DNA from: Oceanisphaera avium
GTDB lineage: Bacteria; Pseudomonadota; Gammaproteobacteria; Enterobacterales; Aeromonadaceae
NCBI RefSeq assembly: GCF_002157875.1
Contig: NZ_CP021376.1
Coordinates: 496,001-560,000, forward strand
Direction of reading: 5' to 3'
Length of the DNA stretch: 64,000 bases
Shown one piece after another: positions 33,990 through 60,992 of this stretch; the stretch's first letter is position 1; each line of letters starts with the position of its first letter. Under the pieces are notes generated by a model that saw nothing but the letters and a program-made list of their open reading frames with translations, was not told the DNA's origin and ran no database searches. Made by a program: the position numbers and the translations under genes.

Positions 33990-34289
33990 AGCGCATTAAA
34001 CGCAACTCAATTCGTTGTTAAAGACTAACGATCTTTTGCCACGCAATACTCGGAACAACACGAAAAAATTAAGTTGGGATAAGTAAGAGCCATCGTCATC
34101 TTGGCGAAAGTCAGGATCTAGGTTTTGTTACGTGCCAAGCGTCTAATGGATTTACTAATCCTCAATCCTCAATCCTCAATCCCCAATCCCTTGCAATGCA
34201 CCGCCATTGAATTTTCATCTTAGCTCTTGAAAAACGGCTCACTACCCCCATCTTTTAGCTATTAGTCAAACAAGCAAAGGAACATCAAG
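33990..34289. repeat. P2 hairpin copy and 7-bp tandem repeat before htpG
   Basis: 34099-34118 is one P2 hairpin (ATCTTGGC-GAAA-GTCAGGAT). 34160-34190 is a heptamer tandem, three CCTCAAT then one CCCCAAT. The same kind of heptamer is found at 48038-48068. The htpG promoter must lie within this stretch; no sigma-32 type -35/-10 pair is clear to me. Confidence 0.75.
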
Positions 34290-41499: not shown

Positions 41500-41586
41500 G
41501 GACTACTGTACGCTTTACGTTAAAAAAAGGGATGGGCGTGAACGTATGGCGTTTAACATAAGGGGCATGCACCGGAGGTGATGATG

Positions 41587-42156
41587 ATGGATTCGGTACT
41601 TAGCTTTTGGTTTGAAGAGCTTAAACCCGCGCAGTGGTGGCGAAAAAGTAAAGCGCTGGATAAAAAAATAAAAGAGCGCTTTGGTGCGCTTTATTCCCAA
41701 GCAGTTGCGGGCGAGCTTTGGCAGTGGCGAGATACGGCGAAAGGGCGGTTAGCGGAAATTATTTTATTAGATCAATTTTCTCGCAATTTATTTCGTGACT
41801 CACCCCAAGCCTTTGCTGCCGATGCCATGGCGCTAGCCTTGGCACAAGAGGCGATTCGCGCCAAAGCCGATCAACAGCTCACGCCTGCCGAGCGGGTCTT
41901 TCTATATATGCCTTTTATGCACAGCGAGTCTAAAAAAATTCATCAGCAAGCCAGTCAATTATTTAGTGACAATGCCGATGCGAGCCAAGGCACTAAAGCT
42001 GAGCTTAAAGGCCCTATTAGTAGCTTGAAATCCCAACAGGCGCACAGCGCTATTATTGAGCGTTTTGGCCGCTATCCTCATCGCAATAAAATTTTAGCGC
42101 GTGAGTCCAGCAAAGAAGAAATCGAGTTTTTAAAGCAACCCGGCTCGTCCTTTTAA
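41587..42156 (+). CDS. DUF924 family protein
   Basis: This 189-residue soluble helical protein starts MDSVLSFWFEELKPAQWW. It has the DUF924 pattern: D-x-V-L-x-F-W-F, KIKERFGALYSQAVAGEL, AEIILLDQFSRNLFRDSPQAFAAD, FLYMPFMHSES and RFGRYPHRNKIL near the end. It is TPR-like in fold; function is unknown. GGAGG at 41574-41578 is followed by three ATGs (41581, 41584, 41587). The third has the best spacing, so I use it. It ends directly before the palindrome array. Confidence 0.85.
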   Translation: MDSVLSFWFEELKPAQWWRKSKALDKKIKERFGALYSQAVAGELWQWRDTAKGRLAEIILLDQFSRNLFRDSPQAFAADAMALALAQEAIRAKADQQLTPAERVFLYMPFMHSESKKIHQQASQLFSDNADASQGTKAELKGPISSLKSQQAHSAIIERFGRYPHRNKILARESSKEEIEFLKQPGSSF

Positions 42157-42180: not shown

Positions 42181-43042
42181 TGTGAGATACCGGGTCTAGC
42201 CCGGTATGACGGTTTATTACTCTGTCATCCTGGCGAAAGTCAGGATCTGTTAGGCTAGATGCTGTATGTGGGAGATACCGGATCCAGTCCGGTATGACGG
42301 TTTATTACTCTGTCATCCTGACGAAAGTCAGGATCTGTTAAGGTCAGATGCTATATGTGTGAGGTACCGGATCCAGTCCGGTATGACGGTTTATTACTCT
42401 GTCATCCTGACGAAAGTCAGGATCTGTTAGGCTAGATACTGTATATAGGAGATACCGGATCCAGTCCGGTATGACTGCTTATTACCCCGTCATCCTGACG
42501 AAAGTCAGGATCTGTTAAGGTCAGATGCTATATGTGTGAGATACCGGGTCTGGCCCGGTATGACGGTTAACTCCTAATCCTGACCTCTTACCCCGTCATC
42601 CTGACGAAAGTCAGGATCTGTTAGGCTAGATACTGTATGCGGGAGATACCGGATCCAGTCCGGTATGACTGCTTATTACCCCGTCATCCTGACGAAAGTC
42701 AGGATCTATTAGGCTAGATACTGTATGCGGGAGATACCGGATCCAGTCCGGTATGACTGCTTATTACCCCGTCATCCTGACGAAAGTCAGGATCTGTTAG
42801 GCTAGATGCTGTATGTGTGAGATACCGGGTCTAGCCCGGTATGACGGTTTATTACTCTGTCATCTTGGCGAAAGTCAGGATCTGTTAAGGTCAGATGCTA
42901 TATGTGTGAGATACCGGAACTAGTCCGGTATGACAGTTAACTCCTAATCCTGACCTCTTACCCCGTCATCCTGACGAAAGTCAGGATCTGTTAAGGTCAG
43001 ATGCTATATGTGTGAGATACCGGATCCAGTCCGGTATGACAG
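42181..43042. repeat. Ten-unit array of alternating P1 and P2 palindromes
   Basis: P1 hairpins (ATACCGGA-TCCAG-TCCGGTAT or variants) start at 42187, 42275, 42364, 42452, 42541, 42646, 42734, 42822, 42911 and 43017, so the period is 88-89 bp, with two 105-106 bp units that carry an extra CTCCTAATCCTGACCTCTTA. Nine P2 hairpins (ATCCTGAC-GAAA-GTCAGGAT) lie between them. Linkers alternate between TTAGGCTAGATRCTGTAT and TTAAGGTCAGATGCTATAT types. P1 stems change in pairs (GA/TC or GG/CC), keeping pairing. No coding frame and no transposase are seen. It lies between the convergent DUF924 and DUF2057 genes. Confidence 0.95.
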
Positions 43043-43072: not shown

Positions 43073-43699
43073 TTATTGCTGTTGAATTGCCCAAATTTGA
43101 AAGGCACGCTGGGTGTCTTTATCGGCTTTATCCCACCAGTGCTTTAACATATCCAGCGCATCTGCATCTACGGGGGCGGCGCCATATTTCGCTTGGGCCG
43201 CTGCTACGGCGGCATCGGTGCGACCACTAAAGGCTTTATTATTTTCTTTTAAATAATCTTGAATACCGCGGGTTAAATCTAAGCCGGCAGGGCGGTGAAT
43301 AGTAAAGATCTCGGCATCGACTGCTTGGTTAGTGCGCTTATCGATCACTGTCACTTGGCTGGCTTGATCTCGCAAAAACTCTTTAGCTTGCTGATAGCTG
43401 GCCGGTTTTTGATATTGCAGCGCTAACTCTGTATCGGCATCTGTTACTACGTTAATAATGACAGGATCGCCTTCCATTACGCGAATGTTTTGGCGAGTGG
43501 AGTAATCTTCTACATACTCCAACACAAACTGATGTTTACCCGCGCCGACTTGGGCAGAGTGTACTGAGCTTAAGACGCTGTGTTTGGTTTTTTCACCATC
43601 TACAAGTAATAATTGATAAGGCTTAGGCGTTTCTATGCTGGCGGCATGAGCACCAAAAGACAACAGACCCACGGCGATAAGGGTTAACGATGTTTTCAT
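43073..43699 (-). CDS. DUF2057 (YccT-like) periplasmic protein
   Basis: This exported protein of unknown role has 208 residues from MKTSLTLIAVGLLSFGAHA (43699); the longer frame start lacks support. A signal peptide with cleavage near AHA-AS is clear. The body has YQLLLVDGEK, HQFVLEYVEDYS and a conserved C-terminal helix MLKHWWDKADKDTQRAF typical of DUF2057. The E. coli relative YccT has been connected to curli control, but that need not hold here. It is downstream of the large repeat array, on the opposite strand. Confidence 0.82.
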   Translation of the reverse strand: MKTSLTLIAVGLLSFGAHAASIETPKPYQLLLVDGEKTKHSVLSSVHSAQVGAGKHQFVLEYVEDYSTRQNIRVMEGDPVIINVVTDADTELALQYQKPASYQQAKEFLRDQASQVTVIDKRTNQAVDAEIFTIHRPAGLDLTRGIQDYLKENNKAFSGRTDAAVAAAQAKYGAAPVDADALDMLKHWWDKADKDTQRAFQIWAIQQQ

Positions 43700-43868
43700 T
43701 ACACTGGGCTCCTTAGCCATAAAGTAATTAACCACTACCACTTTACTAGGATGCGTAAATGGCAGCGTAAATAAGTGTTATCTAGGATTAAATAGCGAGC
43801 CGAGGGAGTTGTAAATAGAAGTTTGTAAATAACGTCCAGTCAAGCATTCATAATCAACTAAAAATCGT

Positions 43869-47619: not shown

Positions 47620-48290
47620 GTGAATGGGGAATAGGGATGGGTGATTAGGAAAAACTGACTCTAAAACGAGATCCTGACTTTCGTCAGGATGACGACCACG
47701 TTTGCTGATGACGACTATTTACATAGCAAATTTTATCTTCGATCTTATTCTTCTTTTTCCGTGTTCTTCCGTGACTATCTAACCAAGAGGCGTGGCAAAA
47801 ATATTAATAGGTTTTAGTTGCGCTCATTTAAGTGAACAGAGCTAGCCAACTGAAAACCTAAGATCCTGACTTTCGTCAGGATGACGAATACGTTTGCTGA
47901 TGACGACTATTTACCCATTAAATTCTCTTTTCGATCTTATCTCTATTTTTCCGTGTATTCCGTGGCAAAAAATATCTTTATTTTTATCTGACCGCTGACC
48001 GCAGGGCTATGTTTTGGTTTAGCTCGGCGCTATCCTTCCCCAATCCCCAATCCCCAATCCCCAATCCCTGTTCATTTCGGCACGGTTCTGGATTTTGTAG
48101 CACGCCCACTTAAGTGAAGAGCGAAGAGGACTCGCCAACTGAAAATCTAAGATCCTGACCTTCGTCAGGATGACGATAACCTAGGCCCTTACCAATCAAA
48201 ATTCTGTTTTCGATGTTATTTCTATTTTTTCCGTGTTCTTCCGTGTATTCCGTGGCAAAAATATCTTTATCTGACAGCTTAGAGCTGAAC
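47620..48290. repeat. Three-unit direct repeat with inverted P2 hairpins
   Basis: Units of roughly 190-290 bp each begin with an inverted P2 hairpin (47671-47690, 47863-47882, 48152-48171; ATCCTGAC-TTTC-GTCAGGAT then GAC), go on with an AT-rich segment (GATGACGACTATTTAC, TTCGATCTTAT) and end in a TTCCGTG tandem (for example 47949-47964 and 48230-48255), whose other strand reads CACGGAA repeatedly. The second unit holds four CCCCAAT heptamers (48038-48068). The whole lies between the porin terminator and the zinc-finger gene, and no gene is seen in it. Confidence 0.85.
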
Positions 48291-54910: not shown

Positions 54911-55405
54911 CGAGATACCGAGGCAAGCTCGGTATGACGACAAGAGCGGTGTTTTTTGTTGCTGCCGTCATCCTGACGAACGTCAGGATCTGCTTTTAGG
55001 GCTTAAGTATTAATGCGAGATACCGAGGCAAGCTCGGTATGACGACAAGAGCGGTGTTTTTTGTTGAGTCCGTCATCATGGCGCACGTCAGGATCTGCTT
55101 TTAGGCTTTAGTGCTAACAGCGAGATACCAAGGCAAGCTCGGTATGACGACAAGAGCGGTGTTTTTTGTTGAGTCCGTCATCATGGCGAACGTCAGGATC
55201 TGCTTTTAAGGATTATTGCTAATAGCAAGCTACCAAGGCAAGCTCGGTATGACGACAAGAGCGGTGTTTTTTGTTGCTGCCGTCATCCTGACGAACGTCA
55301 GGATCTGCTTTTAAGGATTATTGCTAATAGCAAGCTACCGAGGCCAGCTCGGTACGACGACAAAAGTGGTGTTTTTTGTTGGGGCCGTCGTCCTGACGGT
55401 AAGAG
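54911..55405. repeat. Five-unit 105-bp array of P1/P2-type hairpins
   Basis: P1-type hairpins (ATACCGAG-GCAAG-CTCGGTAT) start at 54915, 55020, 55125, 55230 and 55335, an exact 105-bp period. Between them lie P2-type hairpins (ATCCTGAC-GAAC-GTCAGGAT, some with ATCATGGC left arms). The linkers GACAAGAGCGGTGTTTTTTGTT and CTTTTAGGGCTTAAGTATTA differ completely from those in the first array. The last unit is broken after TCCTGACGG. No open frame or transposase is seen. It sits between the csbD terminator and the end of nth. Confidence 0.93.
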
Positions 55406-58449: not shown

Positions 58450-60992
58450 TATGACTGCTCTTCTTTATCTGAGGTGGGGCTAGACTGCTGGGCTGCCTTA
58501 CGGGCTTTAGCGCGTGCCACTGCCGCCTTAATGGCGGCTTGTTTGTTAGCCGCGGCATCTGTGGACTCACTGGTTTGTGTAGGCTCATCGGCTGGCGGGG
58601 GTTCAACGTGCTCGGCTGCGGGGGCTTGGGCTAGTTTTTTCGCTTTAGCACGAGCAACGGCAGCTTTAATGGCGGCTTGTTTGTTAGCCGCGGCATCTGT
58701 GGACTCACTGTTTTGTGTAGGCTTATCGGCTGGCGTGGGTTCAACGTGCTCGGCTGCGGATGCTTGGGCTAGTTTTTTCGCTTTAGCACGAGCAACGGCC
58801 GCTTTAATGGCGGCTTGTTTATCGGTACTTGGCTGCCCACTGTCTGTTGGGGTGAGCGTGGCGGTGACCTCTTTTTCAGGCTTAGTTTGCGCCGGCGAGT
58901 TAAGCGCGGCCATGGCGGCTTTTAATTCGGCTTCTTGTTTTGCTTTAGCCCGAGCCACGGCCGCTTTAATGGCCGCTTTTTTATGATCCACTTGTTTTTT
59001 GCGCGCTGGCGCTTGATCTAGCGCGGGCTGCGCTGCGTCTTGTTCGCCACTGCTTTGCTTAAGGTGAGCGGCGTCTAAGGGCTCAGCTTGCGCTGCCTTG
59101 CGCGCTTTAGCGCGTGCAACGGCGGCTTGAATGGCGGCTTTTTTACTGTCTGAATTATGGCGAGTGCTTGACTCAGAGCCTGGGTTTTCTAACTCAGCCT
59201 GCTGAGTGTCGGGCTCGGTTTGGGCTGCTTTACGCGCCTTGGCGCGGGCAATGGCGGCGGCGACGGCCGGATTTTTCCCCGCAGCTTGGGGCGCATCGCT
59301 AGCGGCGGCTTCATCGCCAGTCATAGCTGAGCCTTGTGCCGCTTTTAGCGCGCGATTGCGCCTGGCTTCTTCTTTACGCGCGGCGCGCGCGGCGGCCATA
59401 TCTTCTGGTGGCGTCTCGGCGGCTTGGCGAGCTTTGACTCGGGCGAGGGCGGCGGCCACCGGATCTTCACCGGTTTTAGCGGTTTGTTCTGCCATGCGCG
59501 CCTTGCGCTCGGCGGCAGCTTTAGCTTGGCGCGCTTGGCGCTCTTCTTTTTCTAAGTTTAAACGGGCTTGGCGAGCTTCAAAGCGCTCCTTAGCGCGCTC
59601 CGCTTGCTCAGCTTCTTGGTGAGCTTGGCGAATATCGGCTTTTGCGACCCGATAATATTGCACCAGTGGAATATTACTGGGGCAGACATAAGCACAGGCG
59701 CCGCACTCAATACAGTCAAATAAATTATGGCTTTCCAGCTTTTCATGCTCTTCGCTGCGCGCATACCAGTAGAGCTGCTGGGGTAATAAACTCACCGGGC
59801 AAGCATCGGCACATTTACTACAGCGAATGCAGGCCATTTCATCCACAGGCGGTGATAGCTCCACCATTGACGGCGCTAAAATGCAGTTACAGCCTTTAAT
59901 AATGGGCGCTTGGGCGGTGTGTAGAGTAAAGCCCATCATGGGTCCGCCAATAATAATGCGCTGCTCAGGCTCGGGCTTAAGGCCATAACGTGTTAGCAAA
60001 TAACGAATAGGCGTACCTATATACACCCAGGCATTACCTGGATGTTCAAAGGTATTACCCGCCATAGTGACCACACGGCGGATCAAGGGCTCATCTTCAA
60101 TAATGGCTTGTTGTACGGCAAACACGGTGCCGACGTTTAGCATCACGATGCCTAAGTCTGACGACAAACCTTTATGGGGGACTTGTAAGCCGGTCAGTAT
60201 TTCAATTAATTGTTTTTGTCCGCCAGAGGGGTACTTGGTGGGTACGGCCACAATAAGCAAGTTGTCATCGCTGTTAGCGGCTTTTAGGGCGGCAATGGCT
60301 TCAGGCTTATTATCTTCAACGGCGATGATGGTGAGCGTTGGTTTTACAATATGGCGCAAGATATCCACGCCCTGCAAAATTTCTGGCGAGTGCTCGCGCA
60401 TGAGGCGATCATCGGCACTGATATAGGGCTCACACTCTACGCCGTTAATAATTAAAGTTTCTATGGGCTGCTGGCGCGTCGGTTTATCTTTAGCGTGGCT
60501 TGCCACTTGGCTGGCTGCAAGTTTCACATGGGTAGGAAAGCCGGCGCCGCCTAAACCTGTGATGCCCGCTTGATGAATGCGTGCTAGCAAAGCTTGAGGT
60601 TCAAGCAAGCTATAGTCGCTAACAGGAAAACGCTCGCGCCAGGTATCTTGGCCATCAGGTTTTAGCACTATGCATAAACCACTTAAACCAGAGGGATGGC
60701 ATAAGGGGCGGTCTTCAATCGCTACAATCGTGCCCGAAGTCGGTGCGTGAACGGCTACCATCATCGGATTAAGCGACTCACTTAAGGTTTGACCTTTAAG
60801 TACCTGTTCGCCAACAGTGACTTGTATTTGCGCGGCTTGGCCTATGTGTTGACGTACTTGTAGTACTAATTCCTCAGGTAGGCCAGCGTCACTAATGGGC
60901 GTGAGATTAGCAGGCGCCTTGCGCTGTGGCGGATGGATACCGCCATGAAAGGTGTGCAACTGGCCCGCTTTTAAATTTTCTAACCACGCCAT
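58449..60992 (-). CDS. rsxC: Electron transport complex subunit RsxC with repeated Ala/Lys tail
   Basis: This peripheral subunit carries the NADH/FMN-type site and two [4Fe-4S] clusters. The 847 residues are longer than the E. coli protein (740). The core occupies about 1-450, with GLGGAGFPTHVKL (148-160), NGVECEPYISADDRL, and clusters CIRCSKCADACP (388-399) and CIECGACAYVCP (427-438). The tail of about 400 residues is a low-complexity charged region with at least six copies of a [KN]-x-A-A-I-x-A-A-V-A-R-A-K-A-[RK] motif. Two of them are almost identical 46-residue units (DNA repeats from 58545 and 58683). It starts 1 base after rsxB ends. Confidence 0.95.
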   Translation of the reverse strand: MAWLENLKAGQLHTFHGGIHPPQRKAPANLTPISDAGLPEELVLQVRQHIGQAAQIQVTVGEQVLKGQTLSESLNPMMVAVHAPTSGTIVAIEDRPLCHPSGLSGLCIVLKPDGQDTWRERFPVSDYSLLEPQALLARIHQAGITGLGGAGFPTHVKLAASQVASHAKDKPTRQQPIETLIINGVECEPYISADDRLMREHSPEILQGVDILRHIVKPTLTIIAVEDNKPEAIAALKAANSDDNLLIVAVPTKYPSGGQKQLIEILTGLQVPHKGLSSDLGIVMLNVGTVFAVQQAIIEDEPLIRRVVTMAGNTFEHPGNAWVYIGTPIRYLLTRYGLKPEPEQRIIIGGPMMGFTLHTAQAPIIKGCNCILAPSMVELSPPVDEMACIRCSKCADACPVSLLPQQLYWYARSEEHEKLESHNLFDCIECGACAYVCPSNIPLVQYYRVAKADIRQAHQEAEQAERAKERFEARQARLNLEKEERQARQAKAAAERKARMAEQTAKTGEDPVAAALARVKARQAAETPPEDMAAARAARKEEARRNRALKAAQGSAMTGDEAAASDAPQAAGKNPAVAAAIARAKARKAAQTEPDTQQAELENPGSESSTRHNSDSKKAAIQAAVARAKARKAAQAEPLDAAHLKQSSGEQDAAQPALDQAPARKKQVDHKKAAIKAAVARAKAKQEAELKAAMAALNSPAQTKPEKEVTATLTPTDSGQPSTDKQAAIKAAVARAKAKKLAQASAAEHVEPTPADKPTQNSESTDAAANKQAAIKAAVARAKAKKLAQAPAAEHVEPPPADEPTQTSESTDAAANKQAAIKAAVARAKARKAAQQSSPTSDKEEQS

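Follow-up and report, generated by a model that had tools for sequence, protein, structure and literature searches.

Introduction

The closest described relatives of the repeat analyzed here are the CGTC-tagged REPs. According to the part of the founding paper available to us (Di Nocera, De Gregorio and Rocco 2013, PMC3733652), these units carry the tag CGTC, often TGTC, and end in a 3-base tail that is mostly CCA. Their stems are 8-9 bp long and almost always start with AT pairs, and their loops measure four bases in family 1 and five bases in families 2-4. Most units occur as head-to-head dimers; tag-inward pairs are rare, head-to-tail pairs negligible and clusters rare. In this account no transposase lies beside the CGTC REPs, and it is left open whether their transposase has been lost or whether a range of other transposases moves them. 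Our literature search, which covered open-licence articles, found no later work on CGTC REPs.

We analyzed a window of 64,000 nucleotides from Oceanisphaera avium. It covers bases 496001-560000 of a genome that is complete in one contig and 2,902,896 bases long. An initial annotation of the window had described an array of two alternating hairpins, P1 and P2, and had listed possible roles for it: mRNA 3' end protection, protein or gyrase binding, a source of repeated small RNAs, or a mobile palindrome family. It had also proposed a genome-wide count of the hairpins and a search for a RAYT/REP-type transposase. We identify the array as a cluster of CGTC-tagged REPs, and hence "mobile palindrome family" named the right class. 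Hairpins of this class were known before, so the tandem array is a further example of something already described.

Results

The array lies at 42185-43040 of the window between two convergent genes. The DUF924 gene (41578-42156, plus strand) ends 28 bases before it and the DUF2057 gene (43073-43741, minus strand) ends 32 bases after it. Direct reading, the covariance model score and a recount give 19 CGTC-tagged REP units. Ten units with a 5-base loop (P1; starting at 42185, 42273, 42362, 42450, 42539, 42644, 42732, 42820, 42909 and 43015) alternate with nine units with a 4-base loop (P2; starting at 42224, 42312, 42401, 42489, 42595, 42683, 42771, 42859 and 42965). The step from one P2 to the next is 88 or 89 bases in six of eight cases and 106 bases in the other two, which bears out the alternating array with an 88-89 bp period that had been annotated.

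P1 and P2 are not unrelated hairpins, a point that the initial annotation had missed. Both are the same tagged unit, placed on opposite strands, and when either is read on its own strand it follows the plan GTC-AT-stem-loop-stem-AT-CT; within the array the tag strand is plus for P2 and minus for P1. A typical P2 (42312-42336, plus strand; direct reading and covariance model) consists of GTC, an 8-bp stem ATCCTGAC/GTCAGGAT, the loop GAAA and then CT. A typical P1 (42273-42298, minus strand; same methods) reads GTC, an 8-bp stem ATACCGGA/TCCGGTAT, the loop CTGGA and then CT. The P1 stems are GGA/TCC in seven of ten copies and GGG/CCC in three, so the paired stem changes reported earlier are real; in the P1 at 42362 the outermost pair is altered on one side only. 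Seven of the nine P2 copies are identical, and two carry the left-arm variant TGGC, as had been noted.

The first head-to-head dimer (42224-42298, plus strand; covariance model and spacer listing) joins a P2 at 42224-42248 (tag on plus) to a P1 at 42273-42298 (tag on minus) through a 26-base spacer. Eight further dimers follow and reach 43040, and an unpaired P1 (42185-42210) opens the array. Tandem Repeats Finder reports periods of 88, 177 and 370 bases, that is, duplications of duplications. The second half of the array (42595-43040) is approximately a copy of the first, with a period of about 370 bases and 2.2 copies over 42217-43040. These tandem periods argue that local duplication built the array.

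The better evidence that pairing is kept comes from an unselected count, since our alignment of 30 units had itself been selected for pairing. We searched for GTCAT...ATC at a fixed distance, with the inner six pairs left free, in 464 kb of the genome; these make up 16% of it and consist of the window plus stretches picked for holding matches, and are thus repeat-rich. At least five of the six inner pairs are formed in 143 of 164 matches with a loop of four bases and in 134 of 143 with a loop of five. For loops of three and six bases the counts are 1 of 14 and 3 of 15 (together 4 of 29), and reversed and Markov controls yield at most one per loop class. The inner stem is thus paired with loops of four and five bases and not with loops of three or six, and the 464 kb scanned hold at least 277 copies. 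The AT pairs are read rather than tested in this count, because they are built into the search pattern; in the selected set the first stem pair is A-T in all 30 units and the second is T-A in 29 of them. Across the copies in the genome several stem positions vary, and they do so by paired changes. The earlier claim that pairing, not sequence, is kept therefore holds genome-wide as well.

With up to three mismatches the P2 consensus has 17 matches in the window (vs. none in 100 shuffles), and the genome-wide count that had been proposed gives 145 matches (vs. none for the reversed pattern). The base before GTC is C in 109, T in 30, A in 3 and G in 3 of 145 P2 copies; among 134 P1 copies it is C in 99, A in 20 and T in 15. 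The units carry a (C/T)GTC tag, and their unpaired tail is CT plus one base. Among the matches listed, CGTC units crowd at about 57-180 kb and 1.29-1.40 Mb of the genome and are not evenly spread.

We compared neighbors that lie within 250 bases of each other in the 464 kb. Head-to-head pairs number 101, and their spacers measure 26-30 bases in 68 cases. The 99 tag-inward neighbors have spacers that range from 9 to 108 bases, and many of the 89 head-to-tail neighbors are spaced by 9 or 12 bases. Inside arrays we see no excess of head-to-head over other orientations; it is the head-to-head spacers that are regular. Since these mostly fall at 26-30 bases, the P2/P1 dimer is the regular module, and arrays repeat the dimer plus a linker. 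By eye, many spacers look partly self-complementary.

The window holds further units. A second CGTC array (54913-55358; Tandem Repeats Finder and covariance model) has a P1 variant with the stem ACCGAG/CTCGGT and a 105-base period. Consensus search and covariance model also find a single P2 unit with two changes at 34095-34119 (plus strand) and three single P2 units on the minus strand (47669-47693, 47861-47885 and 48150-48174, together spanning 47669-48174), which lie inside a longer repeat. This repeat of about 190-290 bases (47640-48290) also carries TTTTTCCGTG...CCGTGGCAAAAA. CCGTG...CCGTGGCA stretches, which resemble part of it, adjoin repeat sites in the same-genus genomes G005 and G015. 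Near the single P2 units there are 7-base tandem repeats, AATCCTC at 34157-34189 (4.7 copies) and TCCCCAA at 48037-48068 (4.6 copies). A 138-base tandem repeat at 58504-58820 (2.3 copies, 93% matches) perhaps falls, by its composition, within a coding region. Rfam at gathering scores reports tRNA only over the window.

REP clusters prefer the 3' sides of genes. Of 47 intergenic clusters, 18 lie in convergent, 27 in unidirectional and 2 in divergent gaps, whereas the 256 gaps divide into 48, 157 and 51. The clusters are enriched in convergent gaps (p = 0.006) and depleted in divergent ones (p = 0.006). The 47 clusters exclude 25 single units within mechanical reading frames, which are probably chance matches; about the same number are included in our relaxed set of 361 units.

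Gene order around the array is kept within the genus. The DUF924-DUF2057 gap could be measured in 20 of 23 genomes and is 56 to 116 bases long in 13 of them. It is 922 bases long and holds the array in this genome; in G005 it is 540 bases long. Reading by eye revealed no CGTC unit in this gap in G015, G022 or G005, the nearest genomes by DUF2057 protein. The gap holds a RAYT and GTAG repeats in G002, GTAG repeats in G018, and, in G009, G013 and G020, other palindromes that carry a GTC tag, share the plan of the units and end in CCA. Different repeat types have entered the same convergent gap in different species (loci L106, L108, L110, L111 and L112). A terminator-like hairpin is found in the gap of 15 of 19 relatives, and in this genome the sole match is weak and coincides with a P2 hairpin; a second, separate terminator rule did not find the relatives' usual terminator in this gap either. 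We considered whether arrays replace terminators and rejected the idea: among convergent gaps, terminators occur in 12 of 19 with arrays and in 20 of 28 without (p = 0.75).

We compared G005 and G015 over 300 and 320 kb, where aligned blocks are mostly 89-95% identical. For 22 of the 38 clusters in G005 the corresponding site in G015 also has units, for 7 it has none, and 9 could be assigned no position. In the opposite direction, 21 of 28 G015 clusters have units at the same place in G005, 1 does not and 6 could not be placed. Most placeable CGTC sites are thus common to both genomes. One of the seven unmatched G005 clusters, perhaps a decayed unit, does not differ in length between the genomes; several consist of a single unit and could be chance matches. 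Two are multi-unit clusters with other sequence at their place in G015 (448 bases in one case and about 625 bases in the other, where GTAG-like palindromes can be seen by eye). No clean empty site for CGTC units was found between G005 and G015. One array of dimers differs in length, with about two more 112-base periods in G015 than in G005.

Zobellella denitrificans and Z. iuensis are 90.5% identical, and three GTAG-repeat loci of the first correspond to gaps of 32-50 bases in the second. Only these three loci, which were read by eye, are used, because the GTAG detector is noisy (15 and 7 units vs. 10 and 15 in reversed controls); with it, placed clusters are common to both genomes in 1 of 9 and 1 of 5 cases. 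The contrast suggests that CGTC turnover is slow, although the GTAG sample is very small.

The initial annotation had taken it as a hint of plus-strand RNA that the TGGC variants of P2 keep G-U pairs on that strand only. Within the array the wobble pairs are there: where a stem has changed on one side, in three cells of two P2 copies and in one cell of the P1 at 42362, the altered pair wobbles when read on plus. Genome-wide, however, G-T exceeds A-C weakly, and does so on the tag strand of each unit. Among distinct copies, G-T against A-C on the tag strand is 17:11 for P2 and 17:9 for P1 (p = 0.08 together), and counting by position and type in this genome gives 5 to 5 for each of them. Adding G005 and G015 gives 46 to 22, with a nominal p = 0.005 for copies that are not independent. 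Because the tag strands of P1 and P2 are opposite, the wobble excess does not point to one transcript, and we rejected it as a sign of plus-strand RNA. The GNRA tetraloop, also put forward earlier, is not a kept feature: the P2 loop is GAAA in 58, GCAC in 36 and GAAC in 26 of 145 copies. One dimer folds better than shuffles on both strands, as RNA (z = -3.16 for plus, -3.01 for minus) and as DNA. Where clusters lie between genes of one direction, P2 is oriented with transcription in 17 cases and against it in 8, a difference that is not significant by our estimate.

The proposed search for a RAYT/REP-type transposase was negative. The complete genome has no match to PF01797 (Y1/RAYT), for which positive controls matched, and the best match of a relative's RAYT protein is an unconvincing 18 bits (28% over 61 residues). 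We therefore rejected RAYT as mobilizer in this bacterium's own genome. Y1 is present in 38 of 61 genomes searched, this genome among the 61. We fetched 20 Y1 loci, not all of them RAYT-like, from genomes of the same genus. None of the 20 shows a GTCAT...ATC unit, and several show repeated GTAG palindromes. For Y1, then, no transposase gene is flanked by the units either in this genome or at the relatives' loci, and the RAYT gene flanked by its repeat, as in the GTAG system, is not found in this genome.

For counts in other genomes we trained a model, R1, on the units of this genome; its counts elsewhere are lower bounds, as other CGTC stems are missed. R1 has at least 122 matches in this genome, at least 123 in G005, at least 118 in G015 and at least 24 in G010, which is also without Y1. 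In the RAYT-carrying Zobellella genomes G001, G018 and G020 it has 0, 1 and 0 matches. Among 303 gammaproteobacterial genomes, 36 have matches and 13 have nine or more, a cut-off for "rich" that was set after seeing the table. Y1 is missing in 5 of the 13 rich genomes (G000, G107, G113, G133 and G351; for three of these, absence means not being among the listed positives) and in 105 of the 303 overall. A broader model, R2, had poor E-values and was left out of the counts. Piv and dRS3 in Neisseria prompted the idea that IS110 could be involved. As a required partner it was rejected: this genome has no IS110 match, and it is missing from 9 of the 13 repeat-rich genomes. Neither Y1 nor IS110 is present in the CGTC-rich genomes G000, G107, G113 and G133.

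In our class sample of 369 genomes, in which this genome is the only one of its genus, the exact P2 stem occurs in this genome (70 copies) and once in G275; it is also present in the same-genus G005 and G015. It occurs in 14 stretches of viral-collection contigs as well, 12 of which have 66-73% G+C. Several of these are head-to-head pairs, and in L190 and L192 the partner of P2 is a unit with a 5-base loop, the combination seen here. The phage-like contig L191 (14 kb, 73% G+C), whose reading frames look by eye like those for terminase, portal and capsid, has 12 P2-type units in five places, mostly head-to-head.

Discussion

Our data show the anatomy of the units, their presence at many genome sites, the kept pairing, the preference for the 3' sides of genes and the difference in dimer number at one site between two relatives. 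We consider it very probable that the array is a CGTC-tagged REP array of head-to-head P2/P1 dimers, explained jointly by entry in this lineage and tandem growth. On this view a dimer would have entered the intergenic space here in this lineage, and tandem duplication of the dimer plus its linker, through slippage or unequal recombination, would then have enlarged the array between the convergent genes. More tentatively, the dimers may first have been dispersed by an enzyme that recognised the tag strand in its folded form, in the way that TnpA-REP recognises GTAG REPs. No Y1/RAYT is now encoded in this genome, so such a disperser would have been lost or would act otherwise, and movement today looks rare. 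A transposase may once have been present and since been lost. As there is no insertion with a clean empty site, dispersal is read from the copies alone, and the missing units in the relatives' gap could also reflect a loss. An effect on the convergent mRNAs, if any, would be secondary.

One could argue that a chance palindrome was amplified in place as a local satellite, without any dispersed family, and the higher-order periods of the array are what such a process would leave. We give this next to no chance, since it is already contradicted by dispersed copies: the units form dimers and clusters at many other sites of this genome and in sister species, and the exact P2 stem recurs in the viral-collection contigs. 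Alternatively, the hairpins could be RNA elements transcribed from the DUF924 side, acting in 3'-end protection or termination or as small RNAs, with selection on the plus-strand fold. The convergent 3' location, the stable folds and the plus-strand wobble of the one-sided changes in this array are consistent with this, as is the missing canonical terminator of the relatives, bar the weak match at the P2 hairpin. However, the strands of P1 and P2 are opposite, and the weak preference for wobble follows the strand of the unit concerned; the orientation of P2 shows no significant bias toward transcription, the GNRA loop is not kept, and terminator rates in convergent gaps are similar with and without arrays. 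An RNA function as the explanation of the array therefore seems improbable to us.

How the dimers spread is a separate question. RAYTs or other transposases of relatives could have moved the units in trans via horizontal transfer, or a RAYT since lost here could have done so. G005 and G015, equally rich in CGTC units, have RAYT-type genes, and 8 of the 13 CGTC-rich genomes have Y1. Yet rich genomes are without Y1 at the general rate, G010 has its matches and no Y1, no GTCAT...ATC unit flanks any of the 20 fetched Y1 loci, and the RAYT-carrying Zobellella genomes have next to no matches. Overall we regard mobilization in trans, or by a RAYT since lost, as possible but rather unlikely. It is also conceivable, though we think it quite unlikely, that CGTC REPs have no transposase of their own and that host machinery for replication and repair, working on the tag strand in its folded state, copies their dimers and amplifies them in tandem through template switching at hairpins. 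The rich genomes without Y1 and IS110, the single observed copy-number change and the lack of a clean insertion keep this reading in consideration. If true, it would be a transposase-free way to make a repeat family.

Dispersed CGTC dimers that entered the gap and grew in tandem remain our preferred reading, and the array itself is an ordinary, well-formed intergenic repeat. Its host group (Oceanisphaera, Oceanimonas, Zobellella, Aeromonas and Tolumonas) is not named in the text of PMC3733652 available to us. The genome is a clean case: one complete contig, at least 277 units in the sixth scanned, no Y1 and no IS110 match. It helps to narrow the open question of which enzyme, if any, moves CGTC REPs. 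In the class-wide sample CGTC-rich genomes show no association with Y1 genes (5 of 13 vs. 105 of 303 without Y1). A side-by-side comparison is possible because one GTDB genus has both CGTC-rich genomes, whose sites are mostly common, and RAYT/GTAG genomes, whose repeats differ in place.

Compared with known systems, the array has much in common with the GTAG REPs and their RAYT/TnpA-REP (REPtrons, BIMEs, REPINs), namely palindromes in alternating orientation, an unpaired tag, an intergenic location and tandem arrays. However, the tag here is (C)GTC and not GTAG or GTGG, the RAYT of that system is absent from this genome, and the relatives' RAYT loci with repeated palindromes carry the GTAG tag. 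The likeness to CGTC-1 and CGTC-2, as far as the available text of PMC3733652 describes them, goes further. P2 fits CGTC-1 with its loop of four bases and P1 fits CGTC-2 with its loop of five, and the C/TGTC tag, the 8-bp stem that starts with AT, the short unpaired tail, the head-to-head heterodimers, the 3'-side location and the lack of an adjoining transposase, here as judged for Y1, are all common to both. The tail differs (CT here, CCA in most published CGTC units). Large clusters and head-to-tail neighbors are common here, whereas the former are rare and the latter negligible among the published units; we count the frequent head-to-tail neighbors as a difference. Large clusters of the same unit plan are, by that paper's account, also formed by the dRS3 repeats of Neisseria, which it assigns to CGTC-1.
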